Virus record (IMG/VR): IMGVR_UViG_3300042731_009922
Span: 1-50,410 of that record
Direction: 5' to 3' (one strand)
From: a virus
Length of the DNA stretch: 50,410 nt
Part shown: positions 3,939-48,441 of the stretch, piece by piece
How positions within the stretch are numbered: position 1 is the stretch's first letter
Layout: each line of letters opens with the position of its first letter
Program-made: the position numbers and the translations under genes
Notes under the pieces: model-generated
What the model was told of the DNA's origin: nothing
The model's database searches: none
The model's input: only the letters and a program-made list of their open reading frames with translations

Positions 3939-4627
3939 ATCCTAAACAACCTGTCGTATACTCTTTTGGCCTTGTCCTTCCTAGCTACTGTCTCCCCTCT
4001 TTCAATATGCAACAACTCGACAGCGCTTATTGGGCAATAAAACTCCGACACATAAACAGGGACAAATAAAGACCATTGCCTACACAGGTTCCAGAACAGA
4101 TCATGATTGAAGGTTTTTGTGGAATACTCTTGGGTTCCTTTGTATGGAGGATCGCAATACAGAATCGCTTCTATATCAAAAGGTCTGACATTGAGAAATG
4201 ACAACTCAGCAAATTGCCATGCATCGCTATCCCATAAAGACTTCATCCTGAATATGTTCCCGCATGCTTCATTACCGAAATGTCGTTTGCCGCCTCTTGC
4301 AAATCCACCAAACCATTTACCTCCAAACGAACAACCAAATCCAAAAAACGCCTTCGCTGGATTGCTATCTGGCAACAAACGCGCAGCTTGGTATTGCTCT
4401 TCTGTTATATTAAAAGGAGGCACCCATCCCTGCTGCAGAGCTTTATACATCGATATTAGCGCAGGATGTATATCAGAAGCTAATCCAATGAAGCCTTGTC
4501 TTTGGAATTCGGCTGTAACCGCAGCTCCTCCGCAGAACGGCTCCCATACCTCGCGCAGGATCGTGTCCTTGCTTATTGCCGACACGATCCTGCGCGCAAG
4601 TTTGCTTTTACCTCCTAAATATCGCAC
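3929..4627 (-). CDS. D12-class DNA N6-adenine methylase (Dam-like)
   Basis: The 232-residue enzyme matches the D12/Dam adenine methyltransferase family. It has the N-terminal RYLGGKSKL motif, the SAM-binding FCGG at 31-34 and the catalytic DPPY at 159-162. It would methylate adenine in a short target, perhaps protecting phage DNA from host restriction; the target is unknown. The start is GTG at 4627, two bases after the upstream stop. Its base composition is visibly more AT-rich than its neighbours, suggesting later acquisition. No partner restriction enzyme is present. Confidence 0.92.
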   Translation of the reverse strand: MRYLGGKSKLARRIVSAISKDTILREVWEPFCGGAAVTAEFQRQGFIGLASDIHPALISMYKALQQGWVPPFNITEEQYQAARLLPDSNPAKAFFGFGCSFGGKWFGGFARGGKRHFGNEACGNIFRMKSLWDSDAWQFAELSFLNVRPFDIEAILYCDPPYKGTQEYSTKTFNHDLFWNLCRQWSLFVPVYVSEFYCPISAVELLHIERGETVARKDKAKRVYDRLFRICP

Positions 4628-4628
4628 G

Positions 4629-5576
4629 TCACTGACCGCCGGAGAATTCCTCGGGCCTGTAGGGGCGCCACTTGTGCGCGGTGACCTGTCCTCCCTTTTT
4701 GGTGCTCGTGGGTGCGGTATCCAGGCGCACCAGCTTACCCCTCAGAGGGTTGGCCGGGCTTATGGCGAGCTCACCGGCAGCCACCGCGCTTTGCTCAGTG
4801 GGAAAGGCCTGTTTGAGCGCATCCTTGTCATAAGGATCCACTCCATTAGCCGCGCCGATAAAGCCTTTCAGGCGCCCCCTCCAACCTTCCCAGGCACAGG
4901 ATTGATACCAATTCCAGGAGGTACCGACGGCAACAGAGGGGTTGCCCGACCAGACGATTTTGAAATCGACGATCACGGAATTGCTTTGCCGGCCCTGGTT
5001 GAAAAACACGCGCTCTATTTCCGCCACGTATGTCGCTGTGGCCAGAGGCATATAGTTGCCGGTCTGAGATGGGTCCTCGTTGCCCATGCCATCAAATATG
5101 CTCCCACCGCCACCGGTAAACGGCTGGCCATACTGCTGTGCCGGCTGCTGCGGGGGATAGCCGGGCTGGGCCGGTTGCTGCCCGAAAGGCGGATAGGCGA
5201 AGCCGGGCTGGGCCGGGCCGGGCTGGGCCGGGCCGGGTTGCTGCGTGGGATAGCCGGGCTGGGCCGGGCCGGGTTGCTGCGGGGGATAGCCGGGCTGGGC
5301 CGGGCCGGGTTGCTGCGGGGGATAGCCGGGCTGGGCCGGTTGCTGCCCGAAAGGCGGATAGGCGAAGCCGGGCTGGGCCGGGCCGGGTTGCTGCGGGGGA
5401 TAGCCGGGCTGGGCCGGGCCGGGTTGCTGCGGATGGCCGCCCGGCTGGGCCCCGCCGGGTTGCGGCGGATAGCCGGGCTGGGCCGGGCCGGGTTGCTGCG
5501 GGGGATAGCCGGGCTGGGCCGGGCCGGGTTGCTGCGGGGGATAGCCGGGCTGGTTGGGGTACATGGGATTGTCCAT
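4629..5576 (-). CDS. Proline-rich DUF669-like (probable ssDNA-binding) protein
   Basis: The 315-residue protein has two parts. Residues 1 to about 150 are a low-complexity tail built from a 12-residue unit like [12 protein letters not shown], with two longer variants containing [12 protein letters not shown]. The C-terminal part (from about 160: [16 protein letters not shown]...[12 protein letters not shown]...) resembles the DUF669 family of phage proteins, often found beside recombination and replication genes and suspected to bind ssDNA. ATG 5576 has an AAGGA Shine-Dalgarno sequence. It lies between a helicase and a methylase. The functional assignment is moderate; the repeat tail is directly seen. 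Confidence 0.65.
5130..5570. repeat. Tandem 36-base repeats inside a coding region
   Basis: GC-rich units of about 36 bases, with shorter and longer variants, run head to tail and encode the [12 protein letters not shown]-type tail of the DUF669-like protein. Lengths stay in multiples of three. Because the repeat lacks stops in other frames, it also creates long spurious frames on the opposite strand. Confidence 0.9.
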
Positions 5577-11182: not shown

Positions 11183-11529
11183 TGGCTTCTCCCTGGACCG
11201 ACATGGGCCCCGTCGTCGATAACGGCACCGTCACCCACGTAGACCTTGTTGCCAATGCGAGCCCCCGCGCCCACATTGACCTGCAAGCCTACATAGGCCC
11301 AGTCGCCCACACGGGCATCAGGACCGAGGTAGGTCTCGTCTCCTACGCGAGCATGGGCGCCCACAATGACGCGCGGCCCTATACGGACACCCTCGCCTAT
11401 GCGAGCTGATGGGTGTACTTTTGCGGTAGAGTGGATGTAAGCCGGCATGTGCACCGCATCCTCGACGGTATCCGCCGCCATCTCGTGCAACACGGCCTCC
11501 TTCAAGGTTCTTTTCTTAGTGCCTTTCAT
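11179..11529 (-). CDS. Left-handed beta-helix (hexapeptide-repeat) protein, short copy
   Basis: The 116-residue protein has an N-terminal helix (LKEAVLHEMAADTVEDAVH) followed from about residue 30 by hexapeptide repeats of the [LIV]-G-x4 type (IHSTAKVHPSARIGEGVRIG...), the hallmark of left-handed beta-helix folds such as LpxA/LpxD. The acyltransferase catalytic His region (NAHIAHD-like) is not seen, so catalysis is doubtful. It ends DGAHVGPGRSQ, nearly identical to the end of the upstream copy, and overlaps both neighbours by ATGA. A trimeric scaffold is the family norm. Confidence 0.8.
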   Translation of the reverse strand: MKGTKKRTLKEAVLHEMAADTVEDAVHMPAYIHSTAKVHPSARIGEGVRIGPRVIVGAHARVGDETYLGPDARVGDWAYVGLQVNVGAGARIGNKVYVGDGAVIDDGAHVGPGRSQ

Positions 11530-12092
11530 TGGCTCTGCCCTGGGCCGACATGGGCCCCGTCAACCACGATAGCGTAGGTGTCCACAACGGCACCGTCACC
11601 CACGCGAGCACCAGACCGCACATGGGCGCCGTTACCTACGCTGGCCCCGTTGCCCACACGGGCCCCGAAGCCCACGCGGACCCAGTCGCCCACGCGAGCA
11701 TAGGAGCTCACGCAGGCTCCATCGGCCACGCGGGTACCATTGCCCATACTAACGTAGTCGCCCACGCAAGCACCTGCGTTCACGATGGCGCCGTCGCCAA
11801 CGATAACACCCTCACCCACACGGGCACCGTCGCCCACACTAACGTAGTCGCCCACGTTAGTGTAGTTGCCCACGCGAGCACCGTCGCCCACGCAGGCTCG
11901 GAGGCCAACACGAGCACCGTCGCCAATGCGAACATCCTGGCCCACACGAGAATAGGCGCCCACGCGGGCACCGGCCCCAATGTGAGCCTCTTTACCTATA
12001 CTGGCACCAGAGCCCACGCGGGCACCGGCCTCAATGTGAGCCGACGGGTGGACGGCGGAGGTCGGGTGCACTTGAGCTGTTTCGTGGATCAT
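11526..12092 (-). CDS. Left-handed beta-helix (hexapeptide-repeat) protein, long copy
   Basis: The 188-residue protein consists almost wholly of hexapeptide repeats (ARVGDG, ASIGKE, YVSVGDG and so on), enough for about ten turns of a left-handed beta-helix. Its opening (IHETAQVHPTSAVHPSAHIEAG) is LpxA-like. No acyltransferase active-site motif is seen. I choose ATG 12092: it has an AGGAG Shine-Dalgarno sequence and lies about 20 bases after the -10 box of its own promoter. A longer frame starting at 12140 would lie within that promoter. Possible roles include a structural spacer, a DNA mimic or a sugar/acyl-modifying enzyme; none is shown. Confidence 0.8.
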   Translation of the reverse strand: MIHETAQVHPTSAVHPSAHIEAGARVGSGASIGKEAHIGAGARVGAYSRVGQDVRIGDGARVGLRACVGDGARVGNYTNVGDYVSVGDGARVGEGVIVGDGAIVNAGACVGDYVSMGNGTRVADGACVSSYARVGDWVRVGFGARVGNGASVGNGAHVRSGARVGDGAVVDTYAIVVDGAHVGPGQSQ

Positions 12093-16684: not shown

Positions 16685-17081
16685 ATGGATGGCGTGGGGT
16701 GAGGCTATGTTGAGCCTATTGATCCAGAGCGGCAAGTATTACGACAAGCTATTCAGCTTGAGCCCGGAGCGGCTCAGGGCCAGGAATAGGTCGGAAGCGC
16801 TCGTGAAGGCACGCGAGTTTGTGGACGAGCTCTTGGCTCCATATGCACCCGCCTGCATGAGACTGATTGCCGAGGCTACGCGCAAGCTCCAGGTGCAGGC
16901 GTCGGCCAACGGGCGCATGATGCCGAAGGGGATCGAGCTCCGAGCCAGCGCCAGCCTGGTGCAGCTCGATTGGGGCAAGTCCGAGGCCACGACCACGCAC
17001 CTGACCATGCGCTTGATAGTCACGCATGCCGAGATGGTGGACATGCCGGTGGTGGTCGAGGAGCGCGTGCAGATCGCATGA
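16674..17081 (+). CDS. Hypothetical protein, 135 aa
   Basis: I do not recognise this protein (MRDEWMAWGEAMLSLLIQSGKYYDKL...). The N-terminal half is helical and amphipathic; the C-terminal half alternates strands (LTMRLIVTHAEMVDMPVVVEERVQI). ATG 16674 is preceded by GGAG and overlaps the end of the second RHH gene by 11 bases, so it belongs to the same operon. It may be a partner of the regulators. Confidence 0.6.
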   Translation: MRDEWMAWGEAMLSLLIQSGKYYDKLFSLSPERLRARNRSEALVKAREFVDELLAPYAPACMRLIAEATRKLQVQASANGRMMPKGIELRASASLVQLDWGKSEATTTHLTMRLIVTHAEMVDMPVVVEERVQIA

Positions 17082-17085
17082 GGGC

Positions 17086-17115
17086 TTGCGCCGGCGCTCG
17101 TTTTGTGGCAACAAT
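17086..17115 (+). promoter_or_regulatory. Weak promoter with operator-like palindrome
   Basis: TTGCGC (17086-17091) and AACAAT (17110-17115) are 18 bases apart, and ATG 17122 follows six bases later. GTGGCAA-CAA-TTGACAC at 17105-17121 is an inverted repeat with one mismatch whose core GGCAACAATTG resembles the spacer palindromes at 602-617 and 12119-12134. A perfect GCGCCGGCGC palindrome overlaps the -35. Both boxes match the consensus poorly. Confidence 0.35.
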
Positions 17116-17121
17116 TGACAC

Positions 17122-17322
17122 ATGGGCGGGTTGATTGCAGACATTCTTATCATGCTGCGGCGCGCCAGGTTGGACGCGTTACAGTTTGAGTTGAGCAGTC
17201 AAACCCTCTCTGATTTAAGAAGGCGCACTTCGTGTATAGAGCCGCCCCCAACTTTTGGAGATGCGCCAACCGGGGCTATGATTCATGCGCAATTGGCGAT
17301 TGATGATACCGGGCCCGGGTGA
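17122..17322 (+). CDS. Small hypothetical protein
   Basis: The 66-residue frame (MGGLIADILIMLRRARLDALQFEL...) has an amphipathic helical N-terminus and no known domain. It lacks a Shine-Dalgarno sequence but starts six bases after a possible -10 box, as other small genes here do. It fills most of the gap between the RHH operon and a structured leader RNA. It could be a chance frame. Confidence 0.4.
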   Translation: MGGLIADILIMLRRARLDALQFELSSQTLSDLRRRTSCIEPPPTFGDAPTGAMIHAQLAIDDTGPG

Positions 17323-17498
17323 GCCGGGCACCCCGAGAGGGCAACATACTCGTGACCGGTCAACGGAGACCGGAGTGAACCAAGAGTCAGCCGGCGTAGG
17401 TGCCGGACAAATGTCGAGGGGTGAAGCTGGTTCGGCCGAACCGGCTTCACCTCCTCCTCGAGCTGCTTGCTGGGGCAGGCGGTTGGAGGAGGTGAGCT
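17323..17498 (+). ncRNA. Structured leader RNA with sequestered ribosome-binding site
   Basis: No gene is seen in this 176-base stretch, but it folds strongly. There are hairpins CCGGTC/GACCGG (17356-17373) and CCGGC/GCCGG (17391-17406). A near-perfect 32-base palindrome, GGTGAAGCTGGTTCGG against CCGAACCGGCTTCACC (17420-17451), has one G-U pair. A perfect 10-base inverted repeat CACCTCCTCC (17448-17457) / GGAGGAGGTG (17485-17494) covers the Shine-Dalgarno sequence of the next gene. The last two helices share CACC, so they compete. It looks like a translational switch; I match it to no known riboswitch. Confidence 0.6.
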
Positions 17499-17762
17499 AT
17501 GAGCGTCTACGTTGACAAGCTACGGACCTATTCGGACGAGTGGTATTCGAACCAGCAAACAGCTCGTAATGGCAAGCGCCACGGGCACCAGTGGTGCCAC
17601 ATGTGGGCTGATACCGAGGAAGAGCTGCACAAGTTGGCTAGGAGGATTGGTCTGAGGAGGGAGTGGGCACATAGGCGACGTGACGGCTCAGTACACTACG
17701 ACTTGGTGCCGACAAAGCGCAGGAAGGCAATTGAGCTTGGTGCGGCAGAGGTCGAGCCATGA
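17499..17762 (+). CDS. DUF4031-like protein
   Basis: The 87-residue protein matches the DUF4031 pattern: MSVYVD at the start, WCHMWADTEEELHKLARRIGLRREW in the middle and HYDLVPTKRRKAIELGA at the end. Members are common in phages and actinobacteria; their role is unknown. Its very strong Shine-Dalgarno sequence (GGAGGAGGTG) can pair with an upstream anti-SD segment, so translation may be controlled. It overlaps the next gene by four bases. Confidence 0.8.
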   Translation: MSVYVDKLRTYSDEWYSNQQTARNGKRHGHQWCHMWADTEEELHKLARRIGLRREWAHRRRDGSVHYDLVPTKRRKAIELGAAEVEP

Positions 17763-17974
17763 GCACGGGTTTGGCGGGCAGTCTAAACAGACGAAGGATT
17801 GATGTTTGCGACGAATGCGGTGAGGACATCTTGGATCTTAATGACCATTATACTGGATGGATTCTTGGGCGTCGTTGGGACTTGCACCAGGAATGCTTCA
17901 ACAAGCGCAGGTTGGACATGGACTATTTGCAGTGCAAGATAAGTCCTATGATCTTGTACATGGATGGTATCTGA
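17759..17974 (+). CDS. Small zinc-finger-like protein
   Basis: The 71-residue protein contains CDECGEDILDLNDHYTGW...LHQECFNKRR, a CxxC plus H..C arrangement suited to one zinc ion. Function is unknown. It overlaps the DUF4031 stop (ATGA), and its own stop overlaps the next start (TGATG), showing a tight operon. Confidence 0.6.
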   Translation: MSTGLAGSLNRRRIDVCDECGEDILDLNDHYTGWILGRRWDLHQECFNKRRLDMDYLQCKISPMILYMDGI

Positions 17975-19199: not shown

Positions 19200-19231
19200 A
19201 CCGCACCCGGTCTTGCGGCAAACTGTGACAG

Positions 19232-19333
19232 ATGACAGGACGCCTTGTTTACCTCCTTGCTGGGAGCTCAGGCTGCCGTCGCAGGCAGAACGGCCATCCG
19301 TGCGCGGGCGTCCGCCTCTTGGAGGTCTCATGA
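19232..19333 (+). CDS. Possible 33-aa peptide
   Basis: A short frame (MTGRLVYLLAGSSGCRRRQN...) begins at ATG 19232 and ends in an ATGA overlap with the membrane-protein gene, the overlap style used throughout this genome. It would otherwise leave a 130-base gap. Its ribosome-binding site is weak, so it may simply be a leader or a chance frame. Confidence 0.3.
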   Translation: MTGRLVYLLAGSSGCRRRQNGHPCAGVRLLEVS

Positions 19334-19590
19334 GCGTGTTGCGGCGACGGCGGCCTGGGCCATCTACACGTGCTGTGGTATGGGTGACGGCGTTTGCGAT
19401 GCTCTCTGTGGGATGGGTGCTCGTGCTCGGTTTCGCCTTTGCCATGACGGTCGTGCATGATCCGGAGCTGTCCGGTATGAGATCGACTGTCGATGCCGCG
19501 GGCGGCTTCGGATGGTACCTGTGGGCTCTATCTGCTGTAATCATACTCCCGCCGGCGTTTGTGGCGAGCATCGTTGTCTTAGAAAACTGA
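19330..19590 (+). CDS. Small two-helix membrane protein
   Basis: The 86-residue protein has a basic N-terminus (SVLRRRRPG) and two transmembrane segments, about 14-38 and 58-84, with a short polar loop between. ATG 19330 has a GGAGG Shine-Dalgarno sequence at good spacing. It could be a holin-like or superinfection-exclusion protein, but its place among early-type genes, far from the lysis genes, argues against a lysis role. Confidence 0.5.
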   Translation: MSVLRRRRPGPSTRAVVWVTAFAMLSVGWVLVLGFAFAMTVVHDPELSGMRSTVDAAGGFGWYLWALSAVIILPPAFVASIVVLEN

Positions 19591-20084: not shown

Positions 20085-20434
20085 TGCGAATCGTCGACGT
20101 CAAACCTTCGTGGCTTGTGAAAGGCCCCAATAAAGGCCTGCAGACCAATGCCATGATCAATGCCATGTGCGCCAGGATGTACCGGGACGGGCAACCAATG
20201 CCGGTGGTTGTGGACAATGTCACGTGCAGGGTGCTGGCGGGCTCGTCGGCGGTAGAGGCGGCTGTGCTGCTCGATTGGGAAGACGAGGGCAGGATGTTGC
20301 AGGCAGCGCTGCATGATGGATCCACGCTGTGCTCGGAGATTGTCTGCTGGTGGCGACTGTTCGAGCAACCGGTCACGGCGCCTGATTTCCCGGAAGAAAC
20401 GCTCGAGGACATCATCCGCAGGATACCGATTTGA
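20084..20434 (+). CDS. Hypothetical protein, 116 aa (ParB/sulfiredoxin-like beginning)
   Basis: The protein begins MRIVDVKPSWLVKGPNKGLQTNAMINAMCARMYRDGQPMPVVVDNVTCRVLAGSSAVEAA. A 'parameter value, then lookup' layout of this kind is seen in ParB-like nuclease-fold domains (where the segment gives V-x-G-x-x-R/A). The likeness is weak. GTG 20081 is an alternative start. It overlaps the Vsr-like gene by four bases. Confidence 0.45.
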   Translation: MRIVDVKPSWLVKGPNKGLQTNAMINAMCARMYRDGQPMPVVVDNVTCRVLAGSSAVEAAVLLDWEDEGRMLQAALHDGSTLCSEIVCWWRLFEQPVTAPDFPEETLEDIIRRIPI

Positions 20435-20820
20435 CGCCGAGCGCTGCTCAGGCGCTGATGCACAAAATCAAAGGCAACGACATGCTGCCGGAGCACCTGC
20501 TGTGCGCCGAGCTCGACAGGCTCGGCGCCGACTACGTGCGCAACGACCGGAGCCTGCCGGGGACACCTGATGTTGCCCTGCACGGCCGGCATGTGGCAGT
20601 ATTTGTCCATGGATGCTTTTGGCACGGGTGCCCTGAGCACTATTGCGAGCCCCGTACGCGCACCGCGTTTTGGAGGCAAAAGCTCGTGCGGACCAAGCGG
20701 CGCGACAAGCTCGCCGCCGAACGCTTGCGCATGTGCGGATGGAAGGTTGTTGTACTGTGGGAGCACGAGGTAAGGGCAGACCCCGCAAGGGCGGCAAGGA
20801 GAGTGCTCAGGCAAGTCTGA
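20431..20820 (+). CDS. Vsr-like (very short patch repair) endonuclease
   Basis: The 129-residue protein matches Vsr along its length: KIKGNDMLPEHLL, LPGTPDVAL (D47, catalytic Asp), the diagnostic FVHGCFWHGCPEH (H60, H65, H70 region), TRTAFWRQK and GWKVVVLWEHEV. Vsr nicks DNA 5' of a T:G mismatch and normally accompanies a Dcm-type cytosine methylase, yet none is seen here. The start is a TTG overlapping the previous stop; Met10 is an alternative. It sits directly before the small terminase gene. Confidence 0.88.
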   Translation: MTPSAAQALMHKIKGNDMLPEHLLCAELDRLGADYVRNDRSLPGTPDVALHGRHVAVFVHGCFWHGCPEHYCEPRTRTAFWRQKLVRTKRRDKLAAERLRMCGWKVVVLWEHEVRADPARAARRVLRQV

Positions 20821-48177: not shown

Positions 48178-48441
48178 TTACCCCCAAGGTGTCCCGTCAG
48201 AGTTAGTCATCGGGGCGTTCGCGCCAGTTTTGACGCCTCTATCCTTGTAGTTGCTCCATTGCTTGACCATGTCGCCAAACCCGCTGACAATGTATGCTAC
48301 GTTGTCAGCGGGTTTGCTGTTGTCGCTTTTGCAGTTGTTGCAAATGAGCCCCCGGCCGAAGTGCACCCAGCCGCATGCCTTGCATACCCATCGCTCACCT
48401 TCTTGTAGATGAGCCCGGCACCTGCGTACGTTGCGCGGCAT
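48178..48441 (-). CDS. Small zinc-ribbon protein, 87 aa
   Basis: The protein (MPRNVRRCRAHLQEGERWVCKACGWVHFGRGLICNNCKSD...) has CKAC and CNNC knuckles 13 residues apart, a short zinc ribbon of the RanBP2-like or ribosomal-ribbon type. ATG 48441 shares one base with the upstream stop (TGATG). The C-terminal half is hydrophilic. Function is unknown. Confidence 0.6.
   Translation of the reverse strand: MPRNVRRCRAHLQEGERWVCKACGWVHFGRGLICNNCKSDNSKPADNVAYIVSGFGDMVKQWSNYKDRGVKTGANAPMTNSDGTPWG

Follow-up and report, generated by a model that had tools for sequence, protein, structure and literature searches.

The leader of a DUF4031 protein gene in the window, the whole stretch of 50,410 bases of viral contig analyzed here, is a genuinely structured RNA (17313–17453) with good support. 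It consists of five hairpins, H0–H4, and a further hairpin, H5, follows them and masks the Shine–Dalgarno (SD) sequence of the gene. The hairpins H0–H4 are, by sequence comparison, shared by two related phages, absent from a third, and independent of the gene that follows; in the folding models, H5 looks like a static lock on the SD and not like a switch, because the SD stays paired with or without H4. We call H0–H4 an unclassified structured leader RNA, and we see in H5 not a riboswitch but a ribosome-binding-site (RBS) lock like those of coupled genes. The explanation we prefer, to which we give somewhat less than an even chance, is that an older conserved leader RNA has come to stand beside a static lock on an inserted DUF4031 gene, and that translation of a short upstream open reading frame (ORF) would open the lock.

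Structure and conservation of the leader hairpins

Across 838 overlapping 150-base tiles of the plus strand, the two lowest fold z-scores were those of the tiles at 17401 (–6.4) and 17341 (–5.2). The initial annotation had placed a structured element at 17323–17498; the region is indeed structured, but the given start falls inside the first hairpin, H0 (17313–17329). The annotation had also noted hairpins ahead of a palindrome, and H0–H3 do lie upstream of the palindromic H4. Related viral contigs were gathered by terminase and neighboring-gene searches, giving a small set of close contigs, one of which, IMGVR_UViG_3300035137_000063, is 79% identical over 17100–17449 and carries the same hairpins at 74–79% identity, which supports a leader kept in evolution. 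The leader of this relative folds with a z-score of –5.8, and RNAalifold recovered H0, H1, H2, H3, and H4 from the alignment of the two sequences (A3).

All hairpins are on the plus strand. The stem of H0 (GCCCGG-GUGAG-CCGGGC) is identical in the relative, with a U/C change in the loop, and H1 (17332–17341; CCC-GAGA-GGG) is invariant in both phages and, having three pairs and no covariation, is the weakest of the set. In H2 (17356–17373; CCGGUC-AACGGA-GACCGG), two adjacent pairs are changed on both sides, from U–A in the window to C–G in the relative and from C–G to A–U, and none is broken. One pair of H3 (17391–17406; CCGGC-GUAGGU-GCCGG) is changed from C–G to U–G, again with none broken, and GGCGTAGGTGCCGG at this hairpin is identical in the two phages. 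H4 (17418–17453), with 15–16 pairs and the loop GGCC, is kept in the relative with one double change (G–C to U–A) and two one-sided changes. The palindrome had been reported at 17420–17451, and the position is correct; once transcribed, it forms a perfect helix that includes a single G–U pair, U17428–G17443, which is C–G in the relative. As U–G pairs only in the plus-strand RNA and is mismatched both in DNA and on the opposite strand, an RNA hairpin is more likely here than a binding site in the DNA.

Over H0–H4, all 36 pairs (100%) are kept between the two phages, with three double changes, three one-sided changes, and none broken, and controls with the structure slid along the alignment were only 26–51% paired. 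Changes between the phages affect 29 of the 71 unpaired columns and 9 of the 78 stem columns. Against column shuffles, the alifold z-score was –10.1 for H0–H4, –4.9 for H0–H3 alone, and –8.4 for H4 alone. The initial annotation had named a lack of covariation in relatives among the findings that would count against it, and compensatory changes were found for H2 and H4. The covariation support is nevertheless thin, with only two known carriers: the column-shuffle control for covariation was reached by 65 of 500 shuffles, a figure that two sequences cannot better.

Searches for additional carriers covered several collections. A covariance model (R1) run on 35 related viral records matched the contig 3300035137_000063 alone, and BLAST searches of phages and plasmids with the leader gave chance matches only. 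When viral and genome collections were searched with exact gapped patterns built from the conserved blocks, only this contig came up, plus two pattern-only matches in bacterial assemblies, and searches baited with gene 16662, gene 17759, the primase-like gene, and TerL yielded no additional carrier of the RNA. Two contigs close by TerL (L008 and L009) begin downstream of the leader region.

The flanks of the element bear on whether it could be an independent small RNA or the 3′ end of an upstream transcript, with H4 ending a short RNA and the DUF4031 mRNA starting downstream. H0–H4 has defined ends, and the stretch upstream (17125–17307) is not significantly structured (z –1.3) and its ORF has no coding bias. 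The tail of H4, TCCTCCTCG in the window and TTCAGGTTTT in the relative, has no T-run expected of an intrinsic terminator in either phage, terminator scans did not list H4, and no promoter was predicted before the DUF4031 gene. We consider this reading very unlikely.

Two other features of the upstream stretch were rejected. A long-range helix found by RNAalifold (17165–17193/17249–17273; z –3.3) loses to a competing fold over the whole stretch, and coding windows elsewhere score equally low. A protein gene at 17122–17322, considered as the source of the upstream conservation, has an open frame, but the changes between the phages show no clear codon-position bias (17, 10, and 19), with 10 synonymous and 24 nonsynonymous codons; in the relative, the open frame continues across the RNA, but in the window, stops and indels interrupt it.

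Further upstream, the motif TTTTGTGGCAACAATTGACA(CATG) at 17101–17124 (plus strand) stands at this place in all three related genomes and is a possible promoter or operator; no standard sigma-70 –10 box was found at it. In the general form TTGTGGCAA-N4-TGACA-N-ATG, the motif is noncoding, follows a gene end, and occurs twice in each of the three phages, at 17101–17124 and 19211–19233 in the window, at 3941 and 5430 in 3300035137_000063, and at 4831 and 6081 in IMGVR_UViG_3300036975_000082, the second copy again at matching places. Behind the copy at 19211 comes no copy of H0–H4 but a coding gene that has an inverted repeat of its own. At 19250–19350, where a small membrane-protein gene has its leader and its start, a long inverted repeat (CAGGCTGCCGTCGC / GCGACGGCGGCCTG) is largely conserved in 3300035137_000063 (L007), L008, and 3300036975_000082 (L010), and the pairwise alifold z-score (–5.7) is the lowest among 284 tiles. 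The longest short-loop hairpin of the window is a 19-pair inverted repeat, CAAACCCGCTGACAA...TTGTCAGCGGGTTTG, at 48276–48316.

Folding of the SD hairpin and the proposed switch

The initial annotation had proposed that the leader can hide or expose the SD, as a riboswitch, a thermometer, or a protein-controlled switch, with H4 and an anti-SD helix excluding each other and deciding the translation of the DUF4031 gene. In favor of such a two-state switch, CACCTCCTCC (17448–17457) is, read directly, the exact complement of the SD region GGAGGAGGTG (17485–17494, plus strand) over 10 bases and shares the bases CACC with H4, and the conserved structured domain upstream could be an aptamer. The strong SD is also occluded as described, the cost of opening it being about 11.5 kcal/mol. 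The hairpin responsible, H5 (17453–17492, plus strand), comprises 17 pairs and has a z-score of –5.66 on its own, and none of 200 shuffles was equally stable.

The proposed exclusion of the two helices did not hold. Partition-function folding of 17416–17502 gave H4 (17419–17433/17438–17452) together with H5 (17453–17459/17486–17492 and 17461–17470/17475–17484), nearly all pairs having a probability near 1, and the two also form together in the minimum-energy fold. They can coexist because the repeat TCCTCCTCC allows a register shift of three nucleotides, by which the SD pairs with CTCCTCC one CTC repeat further 3′ and CACC stays in H4. When we folded 17400–17540, forcing H4 cost nothing and forcing the proposed anti-SD helix cost 8 kcal/mol, and the SD core was paired in the free fold as well as with either helix forced. 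Masking the 5′ arm of H4, and so freeing its 3′ arm, made the SD harder to open, at 17.7 kcal/mol. H4 is transcribed before the SD and would form first, which agrees with the minimum-energy fold. The SD was thus closed in every state modeled, and the hide-or-expose mechanism finds no counterpart in the models. Exact complementarity to an SD and bases shared with another helix do not imply a switch where a repeat allows a register shift.

The thermometer variant fared no better. In thermodynamic predictions of the leader, which take in neither proteins nor cotranscriptional effects, the probability of an open SD core was 1e-8 at 37 °C, 9e-6 at 60 °C, and 4e-3 at 90 °C; because it rises so little between 37 °C and 60 °C, with the SD closed at all plausible temperatures, a thermometer is implausible. 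The leader is like the ROSE-type thermometers (RF00435) in that hairpins follow one another and the last of them contains the SD, and it matched this family at 19.1 bits against a cut-off of 45, a match not repeated in the relative. ROSE hairpins melt near 37–42 °C through mismatches, whereas the 17 pairs of H5 include a single mismatch and stay closed above 60 °C.

A riboswitch-type control would further be expected to tie a conserved sensing domain to the regulated gene. The only relative with the RNA has neither the anti-SD pairing nor a DUF4031 gene, and H0–H4 is not a DUF4031 switch, because the element of that relative precedes another gene and a second relative lacks the element. Taken with the coexistence of H4 and H5, these observations make a two-state switch improbable.

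Gene neighborhood and translational coupling

The DUF4031 gene (17499–17762, plus strand) encodes a protein of 87 amino acids (Pfam PF13223, E = 8.8e-19), and the next gene (17759–17974, plus strand) encodes a small CxxC/HxxxC protein with 78% protein identity to 4829–5032 of 3300035137_000063 (L087). In this relative, about 45 bases separate the RNA from the homologue of gene 17759, and the DUF4031 gene is missing. The reverse is seen in IMGVR_UViG_3300037124_000019, in which the DUF4031 DNA is 90% identical from the start codon onwards; the sequence upstream is largely unrelated, and the SD, GAGGAGG, is not closed. In 3300036975_000082, the motif TTTTGTGGCAACAATTGAC is followed within about 50 bases by the next gene, with neither the RNA nor the DUF4031 gene at this place. 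The four contigs thus present the RNA without the DUF4031 gene, the gene without the RNA, both, and neither. More distant DUF4031 genes (L004–L006) have ordinary short leaders, and a full-text literature search for the term DUF4031 returned one paper, in which it occurs once.

Some features of these contigs were recorded in passing. The two ends of 3300037124_000019 share a terminal overlap of 127 bases, indicating a phage contig that is circular or has direct terminal repeats. The window contains a gene for a Vsr-type mismatch endonuclease (20431–20820; PF03852, E = 1.5e-18) and, on the minus strand at 11250–11900, a repetitive frame rich in GARVG/GDGARVG hexapeptides, resembling left-handed beta-helix repeats.

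H5 is absent from both 3300035137_000063 and 3300037124_000019; as far as the collections show, it is recent and confined to this contig. The cost of opening the DUF4031 SD ranks second among the 48 window genes with an SD (9.3 by the measure of the scan; median 3.5 kcal/mol), and the corresponding costs are 2.8 kcal/mol for the DUF4031 homologue in 3300037124_000019 and 2.6 kcal/mol for the gene after the RNA in 3300035137_000063. With the SD kept and the spacer shuffled, 3 of 500 sequences reached the observed cost, which is unlikely for one gene, though not across a genome of about 70 genes, and H5 may be an accident of the DUF4031 insertion.

A short candidate ORF of 34 codons, MSRGEAGSAEPASPPPRAACWGRRLEEVSYERLR (17411–17515, plus strand), begins with an ATG at 17411, spans H4 and H5, and has its end 14 bases past the start codon of the DUF4031 gene, which it overlaps by 17 nucleotides. 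Its start and first 13 codons are kept in 3300035137_000063, where 12 of the 13 residues are the same (MSRVEAGSAEPAS in the window, MSRGEAGSAEPAS in the relative); beyond codon 13, nothing is shared between the two versions, and that of the relative ends 17 bases before the next gene. A candidate SD, AGGTG, lies 8 bases before the ATG in the window and 6 in the relative, most of it within the loop of H3; opening it would take about 4 kcal/mol, or 9 kcal/mol with the start codon included. The conservation of the short ORF may reflect that of the RNA beneath and is not independent evidence of translation.

The arrangement nonetheless has the hallmarks of a coupled pair, with a downstream RBS closed by a stable structure and an upstream ORF that spans this structure and stops close to the downstream start. 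Expression of the MS2 coat gene is 100% with an RBS hairpin of –7.9 kcal/mol, 20% with one of –9.5 kcal/mol, and 4% with one of –10.3 kcal/mol (PMC9894550); by this comparison, free ribosomes should not use the DUF4031 SD behind a hairpin as stable as H5. Documented cases of coupling include RBS hairpins that a ribosome coming from upstream opens and overlapping gene pairs such as MS2 coat–lysis, in which the lysis gene has an RBS hairpin and is coupled to the overlapping upstream gene (PMC12548453). In both MS2 coat–lysis and Escherichia coli rpmI–rplT, as in the leader, the downstream RBS is shut by a stable hairpin, and the upstream ORF, which overlaps the downstream gene or adjoins it, reads through this hairpin (PMC12548453); here, by contrast, the upstream ORF is a candidate of 34 codons, and a separate conserved multihairpin RNA lies beside the lock.

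In the coupled-lock explanation that we prefer, the DUF4031 gene would have been placed directly behind the H0–H4 RNA, ahead of what had been the first gene of the operon, and the new long hairpin H5, beside H4, would have come to enclose its strong SD. Ribosomes would start at the short ORF, with the AGGTG of the H3 loop as their SD, open both H4 and H5 in passing, stop at 17515, and reinitiate at the DUF4031 start codon. We infer the coupling to the candidate short ORF from the arrangement, as we do the transcript start and the translation of the short ORF.

Known families and wider readings

The main rival to the coupled-lock explanation is that H0–H4 is a regulatory or processing element of the whole operon, such as a protein-binding leader, an RNase III site, a stability element, or an orphan transcriptional riboswitch, with H5 a by-product of the insertion and DUF4031 weakly expressed. 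In its favor, the RNA persists although the gene behind it differs, and H5 is found in this contig only; with 0.6% of shuffles reaching the SD opening cost, a genome could be expected to have one such gene without surprise. In phage operons, processing and stability sites are commonly long perfect hairpins located between genes. Against it, 3300036975_000082 has the operon without the RNA, no T-run is present for termination, and an SD of eight bases is oddly strong for a gene meant to be silent. We regard this reading as a real possibility, although one we lean against. A ligand- or protein-controlled function of H0–H4 acting on the whole operon is possible.

No known RNA family accounted for the element, as the initial annotation had stated. 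Rfam 15 gave no match in the window at the gathering threshold, and permissive thresholds gave chance-level matches only in 17050–17520 and in the homologous stretch of 3300035137_000063. The best of these in the window were ROSE and Ms_IGR-8 (RF02470), which the leader resembled mainly through H4, at 23.6 bits against a cut-off of 44; this identity was rejected, as the homologous stretch of the relative is unmatched, and we attribute it to a chance resemblance of a GAAGC hairpin. The leader is also like the orphan structured leader RNAs known from comparative genomics as riboswitch candidates, which similarly have conserved leader hairpins and no Rfam match, but H0–H4 is carried by just two contigs, both of them from phages, and is not consistently associated with one gene family.

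The most far-reaching proposal, which we think unlikely but worth stating, is that H0–H4 would represent a new class of leader RNAs in phages, in which it would act as the sensing domain and control the zinc-protein operon by binding a metabolite, a metal ion, or a phage protein, and that this phage would have wired to it a second lock, acting on the translation of a gene it had newly gained. On the evidence of compensation in two phages, H0–H4 appears to be a previously undescribed structured RNA of phage genomes, and the four contigs, as a before-and-after set, allow one to test how a cassette placed beside a structured leader acquires translational control.
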